NCBI GenBank assembly: GCA_037965595.1
Contig: CP150183.1
Coordinates: forward strand, 2,418,001-2,482,000
Source: Alkalihalobacillus sp. FSL W8-0930
Lineage (GTDB): Bacteria; Bacillota; Bacilli; Bacillales; Bacillaceae_D
DNA: 64,000 nt
Direction of reading: 5' to 3'
The notes beneath the pieces were generated by a model. It was not told the DNA's origin. It did no database searches and saw nothing but the letters and a program-made list of their open reading frames with translations. A program made the position numbers and the translations under genes. This document shows, one piece after another, positions 7,650-62,391 of the stretch. Each line of letters begins with the position of its first letter. The first letter of the stretch is position 1.

Positions 7650-7665
7650 TATGAAGCTGAAGTGT

Positions 7666-7927
7666 TTGGGACATAACTAAAAATCAATTAGGAAATGGCG
7701 AATGTTTCGATTACAGAATCATTCGCCATTTGTTTTTTTCGTATTTTAGTAAGACGAGCGGAAGGAGAACCCGAGACTCCTACGGAACAGAACGCGGTGA
7801 AGACACTGTAGCGGCGCTTTTCCCGCGAAAGGGGCTGAGGCCGTTCCCGTGGAAAGCGAGGGATTCTCCTGTAGCGAATTTGCTGCTGTGTCCGTGTTTG
7901 ACTATTTACATTAAAGTGCTGTCCCGG
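7666..7927 (+). repeat. Dispersed structured repeat, copy A
   Basis: One of four copies in the window. Terminal arms GGGACA (7668-7673) and TGTCCC (7920-7925) pair. An internal hairpin formed by AATGGCGAATG and CATTCGCCATT follows, then a GC-richer core of about 130 nt with GGAGAACCC and GGGATTCTCC as a second long-range pair. It lies directly downstream of lipM (minus strand). Short open frames that cross it on both strands are not conserved between copies and are not called. Confidence 0.85.
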
Positions 7928-7937
7928 CATCGTATGT

Positions 7938-8777
7938 TTATCTTCTGAAATTCCATTCGTCAGTCGCGTATCTTTGATCAATAATTTTTTGAACCTCATG
8001 CTCCTCAGCATCAGTTAATTCATACGGTTCAAGTTGAATGGATAATCCTTTTTCAAATCCTCTTTTAAAAAGTACACTTGCCTCTTCCACAGTCATAGGT
8101 TTTTCTCTTAACGCATTAATGGCTACTGCCTTATGTTTAAAATTACGTTGCATTCGCTCTCTTAATCGATCACTTGAATAATTAAACAGATCAAAAAGCT
8201 TGTCCTCATCTATATCGAGAATAATGGATCCGTGCTGCAAGATCACTCCTTTTTGTCTTGTCTGCGCGCTTCCCGCTACCTTTCGACCTTCAACTACTAG
8301 CTCATACCATGAAGGCGCATCAAAACAAACAGCAGAACGAGGATTCTTTAATGCTTCTTTATCGGCTTCTGAAGAAGGAATTGAAAAATACGCCTCTAAC
8401 CCAGCCGCTTTAAATCCTTCAAGCAGCCCTTCTGAAATGACTCGATATGCTTCCGTAACTGAAACCGGCATCCTGGGATGATCTTCAGAAACGATAACAC
8501 TATATGTAAGCTCTTGATCATGTAATACGCCTCGTCCACCAGTTGGTCTTCTAATAAAACCTAATTGATGTTCACCTACAGCGCTCATATTAATTTCCTT
8601 CTCAACTTTTTGAAAATATCCAATAGAAAGTGTCGCTGGATTCCAGCCATAAAATCGAATGGTTGGTGGAATCTTACCTTCGCTATGCCAATTTAACAAG
8701 GCCTCATCTAAAGCCATGTTGTACTCAGGAGAACGTTTACCAGAATCAATGAATCTCCACACTTCAGTGTTTTGCAT
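7938..8777 (-). CDS. lipM: Octanoyl-[GcvH]:protein N-octanoyltransferase LipM
   Basis: A 279-residue member of the biotin/lipoate protein ligase fold, equal in length to B. subtilis LipM (278). It transfers octanoate from octanoyl-ACP to GcvH, the first step of lipoate assembly. [11 protein letters not shown] is the conserved substrate-binding loop, the catalytic cysteine is C151 ([12 protein letters not shown]), and the lysine lies in GRKVAGSAQ. The position close to yqhL and the gcv operon fits its role in charging the glycine cleavage H protein. Start ATG 8777 follows AAAGGGG. Repeat copy A begins 11 nt past its stop. Confidence 0.93.
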
Positions 8778-13016: not shown

Positions 13017-13299
13017 AAAAAGAGACTGAGACAAAGACTATAAATTAACTAGAAAATGGCTAATGATTCTAAGATCGAATCATTAGCCATTCGTGTTTTT
13101 CGTATTTTAGTAAGACGAGCGGAAGGAGAACCCGAGACTCCTACGGAACAGAACGCGGTGAAGACACTATAGCGGTGCTTTTCCCGCGGAGGGGGCTGAG
13201 GCCGTTCCCGTGGAAAGCGAGGGATTCTCCTGTAGCGGGTTTATTGCTATATTCGTGTTTTGCTATCCACATTAATTGTTCTGTCCAAGCCTCTTTTTT
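13017..13299 (+). repeat. Dispersed structured repeat, copy B
   Basis: Full-length copy between the PepSY gene and gcvPB (convergent). Ends AAAAAGAG (13017-13024) with GACA (13030-13033) pair with TGTC (13282-13285) and CTCTTTTTT (13291-13299), leaving T runs on both strands, so the closed element could work as a bidirectional terminator. The internal hairpin reads AATGGCTAATGATTC / GAATCATTAGCCATT; compared with other copies both arms changed together (GCG/CGC pairing to GCT/AGC). Confidence 0.88.
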
Positions 13300-13309
13300 C
13301 CTTTAACCG

Positions 13310-17320: not shown

Positions 17321-17492
17321 GAACCAGAAAGTTTCACTCGGCTGTTGCCGAATTGTCTTCGTGGGTGGCTTGCATAGCAAGCTCTCTCCAGAGCTGCGTC
17401 ACGTAAAAGTCTGTTTGCCTGAGAGATTCACATCACTGCTTGCTCCTTCGGCGCCGGGCAGTTTCGCCCGATCTCTCCCCTTACCTTCATCC
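17321..17492 (-). promoter_or_regulatory. Tandem glycine riboswitch upstream of gcvT
   Basis: Two glycine aptamers read on the minus strand. The first has GGGGAGAGATC, GCGCCGAAGGAGCAAGC and AATCTCTCAGGCAAA. The second begins with GCTCTGGAGAGAGCTT and ends with CTTTCTGG near 17325. In the known class, glycine binding prevents the terminator and turns on the gcv operon. Its location directly before gcvT confirms the assignment. Confidence 0.95.
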
Positions 17493-23805: not shown

Positions 23806-23887
23806 TGCGGGTGAAGGGACTTGAACCCCCACGTCATAAGACACTAGATCCTAAATCTAGCGCGTCTGCCAATTCCGCCACACCCGC
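23806..23887 (-). tRNA. tRNA-Leu (UAG)
   Basis: An 82-nt class II tRNA with acceptor GCGGGTG/CACCCGC, anticodon loop TTTAGGA (TAG) and a long variable arm. CCA is not encoded. Last gene of the nine-tRNA cluster. Confidence 0.97.
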
Positions 23888-23906
23888 GTATTTAATTTCT
23901 TCAAAA

Positions 23907-23997
23907 TGGCGGAGAAGGAGGGATTTGAACCCTCGCGCCGCTTACACGACCTACACCCTTAGCAGGGGCGCCCCTTCAGCCACTTGGGTACTTCTCC
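23907..23997 (-). tRNA. tRNA-Ser (GCU)
   Basis: A 91-nt class II tRNA, acceptor GGAGAAG/CTTCTCC, anticodon loop CTGCTAA (GCT), long variable arm, encoded CCA. Confidence 0.97.
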
Positions 23998-24039
23998 AAG
24001 AGTCAAAAAGCATAGCTCTTATCTTATTGAAGAGTATGA

Positions 24040-24113
<74 letters not shown>

Positions 24114-24124
24114 ATACTCTAGAA

Positions 24125-24195
24125 AGCGGGTGATGAGAATCGAACTCACATCATCAGCTTGGAAGGCTGAGGTTTTACCACTAAACTACACCCGC
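24125..24195 (-). tRNA. tRNA-Gly (UCC)
   Basis: A 71-nt tRNA, acceptor GCGGGTG/CACCCGC, anticodon loop CTTCCAA (TCC), CCA not encoded. Confidence 0.97.
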
Positions 24196-24238
24196 ATATT
24201 TACATGTATCCTATTCATTCGCACAGATAGTACAGCGA

Positions 24239-24310
24239 AGCGGAAGACGAGATTCGAACTCGCGACCCCCACCTTGGCAAGGTGGTGTTCTACCACTGAA
24301 CTACTTCCGC
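24239..24310 (-). tRNA. tRNA-Gly (GCC)
   Basis: A 72-nt tRNA, acceptor GCGGAAG/CTTCCGC, anticodon loop TTGCCAA (GCC), CCA not encoded. Confidence 0.97.
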
Positions 24311-24314
24311 AAAA

Positions 24315-24389
24315 TGGCTGGGCTACCTGGGATCGAACCAGGGAATGACGGAATCAAAATCCGTTGCCTTACCGCTTGGCTATAGCCCA
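24315..24389 (-). tRNA. tRNA-Gln (UUG)
   Basis: A 75-nt tRNA, acceptor TGGGCTA/TAGCCCA, anticodon loop TTTTGAT (TTG), encoded CCA. Its first 15 bases equal those of the odd tRNA-like gene at 27012-27084. Confidence 0.97.
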
Positions 24390-24405
24390 TCAAACAAAAA
24401 GGTAA

Positions 24406-24479
<74 letters not shown>

Positions 24480-24500
24480 ACGTTATAAAGTTAATAAAAA

Positions 24501-24593
24501 TGGAGGAGGAAGAGGGATTCGAACCCCCGCGCGGTTTGACCCGCCTGTCGGTTTTCAAGACCGATCCCTTCAGCCAGACTTGGGTATTCCTCC
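24501..24593 (-). tRNA. tRNA-Ser (UGA)
   Basis: A 93-nt class II tRNA, acceptor GGAGGAA/TTCCTCC, anticodon loop CTTGAAA (TGA), encoded CCA. Confidence 0.97.
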
Positions 24594-24612
24594 GAGATAA
24601 AAAGTATGAAAG

Positions 24613-24685
24613 TGGAGCCTAGCGGGATCGAACCGCTGACCTCCTGCGTGCAAGGCAGGCGCTCTCCCAGCTGAGCTAAGGCCCC
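24613..24685 (-). tRNA. tRNA-Ala (UGC)
   Basis: A 73-nt tRNA, acceptor GGGGCCT/AGGCTCC with one G-T pair, anticodon loop CTTGCAC (TGC), CCA not encoded. First gene of the cluster, about 75 nt after the promoter. Confidence 0.97.
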
Positions 24686-34592: not shown

Positions 34593-39152
<4,560 letters not shown>

Positions 39153-39245
39153 TTTCACTCCTCCTTTAACGCAATATAATCTATAAATATTCAGTCTTTG
39201 ATCTATTTGTTTGAGCCTTAACCTACCATTAGTTTTTATTTTCCA

Positions 39246-39272
39246 ACAAAAAAAAGCCCACAAGAATGGGCT
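39246..39272 (-). terminator. Terminator between the two collagen-like genes
   Basis: Minus strand: AGCCCA-TTCTTG-TGGGCT followed by eight T residues (plus coordinates 39246-39272). The second gene is therefore probably transcribed separately from the first. Confidence 0.9.
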
Positions 39273-39285
39273 CAACATTTATAAA

Positions 39286-50170: not shown

Positions 50171-50183
50171 GTGTTAAAATAAG

Positions 50184-50293
50184 TTTGGGACACAACTAAA
50201 AATCAATTAGAAAATGGCGAATGATTCGATTGCAGAATCATTCGCCATTCGTGATTTTATTTGAACAAGCGGAGGGAGAACCCGAGACTCCTA
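50184..50293 (+). repeat. Dispersed structured repeat, copy C (truncated)
   Basis: Only the left 110 nt: TTTGGGACA arm, the hairpin AATGGCGAATGATTC / GAATCATTCGCCATT (perfect), and the start of the core to GAGACTCCTA. It breaks off exactly where the axe gene ends; the axe stop codon (50291-50293) is inside the repeat sequence. Confidence 0.88.
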
Positions 50294-61355: not shown

Positions 61356-61607
61356 GCTTGGACATAACTAAAAATCAAATAGAAGTTGGCGAATGATTTA
61401 GTTGCAGAATCATTCGCCATTTGTGGTTTTATTAGAACTAGCGGAGGGAGAATCCGAGACTCCTACGGAACAGAACGCGGTGAAGACACTGTAGCGGCGC
61501 TTTTCCGCGGAGGGGGCCGAGGCCGTTCCCGCAGGTGAGAGGAATTCTCCTGAAGCGGATCTAATGCTATATTCATAATTTAATCGTTATTAATGTTATG
61601 TCCAGGC
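61356..61607 (+). repeat. Dispersed structured repeat, copy D
   Basis: Full-length copy. Ends GCTTGGACATAAC (61356-61368) and GTTATGTCCAGGC (61595-61607) are complementary over 13 positions, with one G-T pair. The internal hairpin TGGCGAATGATTT / GAATCATTCGCCA and the core are present. Its GGAGAATCC / GGAATTCTCC pair differs from copies A and B (GGAGAACCC / GGGATTCTCC) by a matched C-to-T and G-to-A change. It lies 4 nt past the fabI stop. Confidence 0.9.
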
Positions 61608-61611
61608 CTTT

Positions 61612-62391
61612 TTATAAAGAAATAATATTGTATCCACCATCTACATGAAGAATTTCACCAGTAATTCCTCGTGCTAAGTCACTTGCCAGGAATAAAGCTG
61701 TGTCCCCTACTTCTTCTTGCGTTGTTGTTTTACGTAAAGGTGCTTTTTCTTCGATTGTTTTTAACACATCGTTGAAACCACCAATTCCTTTTGCAGCAAG
61801 CGTACGAATAGGACCAGCCGAGATCGCATTCACACGGATTCCATCCTTACCAAGGTCATTGGCCAGATATTTCACACTTGCATCAAGAGTCGCCTTCGCT
61901 ACACCCATGACGTTGTAGTTTTTAATTACTTTTTCTCCACCTAGGTACGTAAGTGTAATGATGCTTCCACCTTCAGACATAAGCGGACGAGCTTCTTTTG
62001 CTACAGCAGTTAGTGAATACGCACTAATGTTTTGAGCAAGCAAGAAACCATCACGAGTTGTATTAAGATACTCGCCTTCAAGCTCTTCTTTATTTGCAAA
62101 AGCAATACAGTGGGCTAAACCATGAATCGTTCCAACTTCTTCTTTGATTTGCTTAAACGTAGAAGCAATTTCTTCGTCACTTGTAATATCACAAGGTAAT
62201 ACTAAATGATCATCACGATCCAAGCTTTCCGCTAATTGACGAACGTTTTTTTCTAGACGCTCTCCTGCATATGTAAAAATTAAACGAGCTCCAGCCTTCG
62301 CTAGAGACTGAGAAATTCCCCAGGCAATACTGCGTTTGTTTGCAACACCCATAACAACGAATGTGCGGTTTTCTAAAGATAATTGAAACAT
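61612..62391 (-). CDS. fabI: Enoyl-[acyl-carrier-protein] reductase FabI
   Basis: A 259-residue NADH-dependent enoyl-ACP reductase (B. subtilis 258), the last step of each fatty-acid elongation cycle. VMGVANKRSIAWGI, TLTYLGGEKVIKNYNVMGVAK (catalytic Y-x6-K within it) and the end EILHVDGGYNIISL are diagnostic. GGAGG precedes the ATG. A FapR-like operator lies in the promoter. In B. subtilis fabI is next to the cotO-cotZYXWV spore-crust genes. Confidence 0.96.
   Translation of the reverse strand: MFQLSLENRTFVVMGVANKRSIAWGISQSLAKAGARLIFTYAGERLEKNVRQLAESLDRDDHLVLPCDITSDEEIASTFKQIKEEVGTIHGLAHCIAFANKEELEGEYLNTTRDGFLLAQNISAYSLTAVAKEARPLMSEGGSIITLTYLGGEKVIKNYNVMGVAKATLDASVKYLANDLGKDGIRVNAISAGPIRTLAAKGIGGFNDVLKTIEEKAPLRKTTTQEEVGDTALFLASDLARGITGEILHVDGGYNIISL

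Follow-up and report, generated by a model that had tools for sequence, protein, structure and literature searches.

The repeat that occurs four times in the window, the 64-kb stretch of DNA analysed here, is best described as a MITE that replaces terminators and has a conserved, RNA-like module as its passenger. It consists of three parts, namely terminal repeats (GAGGCTGGGACATAAC), a terminator-like hairpin (hairpin I) and a rod-shaped GC-rich core. The explanation that best accounts for the data as a whole, to which we assign a probability of roughly 0.8, is a non-autonomous MITE of the IS1182 family that replaces terminators and has a separate core module aboard. According to this model, a DDE transposase of IS1182 type, such as the one that is intact in a congener, would have acted in trans on the GAGGCTGGGACATAAC ends, and the target would be palindromic DNA, mainly intrinsic terminators just past stop codons. 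Insertion would delete the target stem-loop without a target-site duplication (TSD), as in the stem-loop-replacing transposition of IS1272. Hairpin I, placed close behind the stop codon, would become the replacement terminator, and insertion would thereby be nearly neutral and so tolerated in more than 100 places. The GC-rich core would be a separate conserved rod-shaped module, probably a + strand RNA, that also resides in other shells including another IS1182 element.

Copies and architecture of the repeat

The four copies reported in the window by an earlier note were recovered by BLAST and HMM searches, one of them (copy C) being truncated. Copies B, C and D share 82–87% identity with copy A at E values of 5e-85 to 2e-33, which exclude chance. 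The term "four-copy repeat" is apt for the window but not for the genome, in which the four belong to a genome-wide family: a covariance model of the 150-nt core region (R1) gave 126 matches in the 3.885 Mb of the window's genome. The relevant features of the window are as follows.

7661..7939, + strand: copy A, full element (MITE); HMM positions 4–282 of 287, 309 bits
7663..7677, + strand: left terminal inverted repeat (TIR) of copy A, containing TTTGGGACATAAC; defined by the 30-copy alignment and the same as the TIR of a congener's IS1182-family IS
7693..7731, + strand: hairpin I of copy A followed by a T-run, terminator-like; compensatory changes among copies
7764..7869, + strand: core rod P1–P5 of copy A, conserved structured module; covariation in 58 sequences from about 29 genera
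7916..7931, + strand: right TIR of copy A, GTGCTGTCCCGGCATC; defined by the 30-copy alignment
13019..13303, + strand: copy B, full element with convergent genes on either side; common to the window's genome and A. gibsonii
13055..13091, + strand: hairpin I of copy B with a compensated G-C to T-A change and a T-run behind it
50181..50293, + strand: copy C, truncated inside the core, 3′ half missing; A. gibsonii has a hairpin at the empty site
61356..61614, + strand: copy D, full element, P1 with a compensated C-G to T-A change; A. gibsonii has a terminator-like hairpin at the empty site

The end of copy C (50290–50293) coincides exactly with the stop codon of a convergent minus-strand gene, with a short microhomology, CTA. 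Elsewhere in the window lie a glycine riboswitch (17397–17490, minus strand), a tRNA gene cluster (23806–24685, minus strand) and an ORF of 1561 aa with a 9-base tandem period (34593–39278).

Thirty copies could be aligned end to end, and their order of parts is AAAAGAGGCTGGGACATAAC, hairpin I with the arms AATGGCGAATGATTC/GAATCATTCGCCATT, a T-run, the GC-rich core and GTTATGTCCCAGCCTCTTTT; the complementary ends, internal hairpin and GC-rich core described previously were each seen. Full elements measure about 260–285 bp. Shorter elements of about 165 bp that have these ends and hairpin I but no core are common in the window's genome; they were noted at 2.38–2.60 Mb and 3.26–3.86 Mb. A text search for the repeat sequence and related descriptions, confined to open-licence papers, retrieved no earlier account.

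The core as a conserved structured module

From paired changes between copies, the earlier note had proposed that folding is, or was before the spread, under selection. The results support this strongly for the core and moderately for the internal hairpin, but not for the complementary ends. When 58 cores, drawn from about 29 genera, were aligned, the covariation score was 0.348, compared with 0.151 ± 0.007 in shuffled alignments and at most 0.101 in slid controls. Double changes were found in 20 of the 30 pairs, and 94.9% of cells were paired versus 82% in the shuffles, after the P1 register of some rows had been corrected and with the tandem G-A pairs excluded. Because shuffling loses relatedness and the structure was drawn from the same sequences, it is the double changes in many genera that carry weight. 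The alignment fits a single long imperfect hairpin, in which an ACTCC/GGAAAG internal loop is conserved and a tandem G-A/A-G step also occurs, the latter replaced by Watson–Crick pairs in two sequences. For hairpin I, 438 of 445 cells were paired and five pairs showed double changes. Both individual compensatory changes named before proved real: copy B has AATGGCTAATG/CATTAGCCATT in hairpin I, and copy D has GGAGAATCC/GGAATTCTCC in P1 of the core. The complementary ends gave no covariation, the arms of the same copy pairing no better than arms taken from different copies. A search of Rfam matched no copy of the repeat in the window at gathering score and returned chance hits only (E up to 5, in one copy).

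Within P2–P5, G-U wobbles outnumbered A-C mismatches (more than half of the wobbles falling at one pair), and the + strand folded better than its complement (z of −4.7 vs −3.4). The modelled core probably folds as a + strand RNA, and we infer that it acts as RNA. Alternatively, it might be a DNA-level cis element, a cruciform or single-stranded hairpin that is recognised in structure-dependent transposition, which would be compatible with a terminator-replacing IS1182-family MITE. We consider this rather unlikely: palindromic DNA is the target of IS1182-type elements, other IS1182 elements insert inside core-type repeats and one IS1182 leader contains the core, all of which speak for a role at the DNA level, whereas the strand bias of the G-U wobbles, the autonomous IS1182 elements that have these TIRs and do without the core, and the existence of core-less short forms speak against it.

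The core is also found in other shells, including, in the congener G003, the leader of another IS1182 lineage with GAGGCCACTGAAAAAG ends, where it is accompanied by a hairpin, and repeats of other genera with a different outer sequence; a 75-nt sub-core (R1 model positions 36–111) stands alone in several genera. It is therefore best read as a passenger module and not as a transposon-defining part. R1 matches were present in 38 of the 298 genomes of the order, with copy numbers from 0 to more than 100 across the genomes of one family. Of 398 genomes sampled from the phylum, a strict search pattern matched the window's own and no other, a result that bounds the spread outside the order only, since few genomes of the order are in that sample. 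Viral contigs, searched with nearly the same strict pattern, and phages yielded no match. Two "plasmid" records of PLSDB contain core matches; NZ_CP088021.1 (L150) was rejected as a plasmid, being a chromosomal stretch with housekeeping genes near the match, and NZ_CP025132.1 (L149), a 1.6-kb record with one metabolic gene, is probably a chromosomal fragment. We tentatively put forward, as a possibility somewhat short of even odds, that the core represents a new structured RNA class of Bacillales that is passed between transposon shells (IS1182 MITEs, an IS1182 leader and other palindromic repeats) and has a real biochemical role in transposition or for the host mRNA.

Placement relative to genes

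All four copies in the window lie directly 3′ of minus-strand genes in one orientation, as had been pointed out; this description is incomplete, as copies B, C and D also lie 10–46 nt past a plus-strand stop codon. Analysis of 47 copies from the window's genome and its congener Alkalicoccobacillus gibsonii KCCM 41407, with genes called by a simple ORF picker, suggested the general rule that the 5′ end of the element adjoins a same-strand stop codon, the typical copy starting about 10 nt beyond it. Of these 47, 33 had an incoming stop codon no more than 60 nt from the 5′ end and 15 had one that close to the 3′ end; 22 had one at the 5′ end only and four at the 3′ end only, and copy A, overlooked by the simple ORF caller, is a further 3′-only case. 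It follows from these orientation counts that hairpin I usually follows the upstream gene's stop codon closely. Hairpin I would there terminate transcription, and a gap of a few nucleotides ahead of its T-run counts against this role.

Filled and empty sites

In all, 709 kb of A. gibsonii were compared with the orthologous stretches of the window's genome. Several copies, including copy B, are common to both species, and many are present in one species only. The other three window copies (A, C and D) have no counterpart in A. gibsonii at the orthologous sites, and at the site of copy A a terminator hairpin is in place. Insertion polymorphism of this kind between close relatives is characteristic of MITEs. 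Most sites were compared in two species only, so that these presence/absence differences are not polarised into gain or loss site by site.

These differences bear on the idea that the copies are first and foremost a regulatory RNA family of the host, a 3′ UTR element or sRNA selected at fixed loci, with mobility incidental. Strong covariation of the core in about 29 genera, the sense orientation just past stop codons, and the G-U asymmetry together with better folding of the + strand would all suit such a family. Most compared copies, however, differ in presence between the two congeners, the copy number varies from none to more than 100 among the genomes of one family, the ends of the element are transposon ends, and short forms without the core sit at sites of the same kind, which together make a host RNA family improbable as the main explanation.

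Scoring was possible at 15 one-species sites. Their empty alleles consist of a stem-loop, in most cases an intrinsic terminator, usually close past a stop codon; AAAAAAGAGATGAGCTGCTCATCTCTTTTT is a clear example. The folding of the empty alleles (MFE) gave z scores of −2.0 to −7.2, and their stems are mostly 11–17 bp long vs a mean of 6.9 in random control windows. Nearly all 15 are strong hairpins, in keeping with the stem-loop targets of IS1272-type transposition. The stems are weaker at some sites, e.g., g0a 27522 (outside the window), and the empty site g1b 541213 received a poor stem score in the automatic screen owing to stem mismatches. The filled alleles lack the stem-loop of their empty counterparts: an 8-mer screen flagged three sites as having retained it, and on inspection no intact hairpin was left there. 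The check for TSDs that the earlier note had called for found none, and flanking direct repeats at the scored sites never exceeded 6 nt. Loss of the target stem-loop without a TSD is what IS1272-type transposition entails. The earlier note had not committed itself on mobility; taken together, the results show an element of transposon type that takes the place of terminators.

A probable IS1182-family partner

Like other MITEs, the repeat has no transposase of its own. A genome search detected no IS1182-family transposase in either the window's genome or A. gibsonii, and past mobilisation is for this reason inferred. An autonomous partner in the same genome, which is usual for a MITE and not strictly required, is accordingly lacking in these two species; the partner was found in the congener G003. 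This genome carries four intact copies of a 1.85-kb IS1182-family IS (NF033551, 435 bits vs a cut-off of 270), about 99.7% identical to each other, with the ends AAAGAGGCTGGGACATAACTAG...GTTTTGTCC(C)AGCCTCTTTTT. The GAGGCTGGGACATAACT ends of the repeat are identical to these IS ends, as expected of a MITE and its partner, and IS1182 elements in G015 and G026 have a near-identical TIR of the same end type. The G003 copies show no TSD and contain a terminator-like hairpin inside each end. Both copies that were tested at orthologous sites occupy the place of the congeners' terminator right after a stop codon, and at these two sites the terminator is common to three or four further species, which makes the IS the newcomer. 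Gain of the repeat by transposition with an IS1182 transposase would be consistent with these findings. An alternative without any transposase, in which the elements would spread as terminator palindromes recombine or undergo gene conversion, seems very improbable. In its favour, the one-for-one exchange without TSD and the absence of an IS1182 transposase from the genome could be adduced. Against it, the empty alleles have no clear sequence likeness to the element, and hence no evident substrate for homologous exchange, and the TIRs match exactly those of an IS1182 IS by which terminators are replaced likewise.

Relation to known systems

IS1272 belongs to the IS1182 family and has been described to replace inverted repeats at its target, leaving no TSD (PMC5678879); the IS1272-carrying TnSha1 has been described to target terminators (PMC4923244). 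These staphylococcal elements resemble the repeat in their IS1182-family transposase, in their stem-loop or terminator targets, in the complete or partial deletion of the hairpin and in the lack of a TSD (PMC5678879; PMC4923244). They differ in being autonomous or IS1272-carrying, and the available text of these sources describes neither a high-copy MITE nor a structured RNA module. The bcr1 repeat of the Bacillus cereus group, as far as its available description goes, is likewise short (147 to 167 nt), intergenic, folded and of mobile-element character, but, going by the title of its paper, it is specific to that group; it is by description that we set it apart. Bhal-1, a stem-loop family of B. 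halodurans (74 nt, 36 copies; PMC2267715), comes from a related host and is similar in length to the 75-nt sub-core, a likeness drawn from the partial description and not from sequence. With classical bacterial MITEs the repeat shares its non-autonomous nature, IS-type TIRs and high copy number; unlike them, it makes no TSD, replaces a terminator and carries a conserved RNA-like rod.

An element that takes away a gene's terminator and brings another in its place would account for how a genome bears more than 100 insertions without harm, and would mean that wholesale exchange of terminators is possible within a genus. The mechanism of IS1272, known from staphylococci, would be extended to a high-copy MITE family of Bacillales for which filled and empty sites are ready to hand. 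In addition, the analysis has revealed an RNA-like module that covaries, is widespread and has no entry in Rfam.

Other IS1182 lineages

The G003 IS with matching ends contains no core, so the MITE is no simple internal deletion of it. Derivation by internal deletion from the GAGGCCACTGAAAAAG-ended IS of G003 was also considered and rejected: a relative in G009 with the same ends is without the core, and the ends of the MITE fit a different IS1182 lineage. The GAGGCCACTGAAAAAG-ended lineage (G003 L061–L065, G009 L067 and G023 L069) inserts in other GC-rich repeats after GACTCCTGCGGG, and 9-bp TSDs were seen in all five G003 copies. IS1182 elements of G008 (L071, L084 and L094) have a full copy of the target hairpin on both sides, the whole stem-loop being duplicated. 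One otherwise near-identical copy of the G003 IS (L242) shows matched changes at both ends (AACGAGGCTGGACA / TGTCCAGCCTCGTT), which were possibly taken from the target stem.
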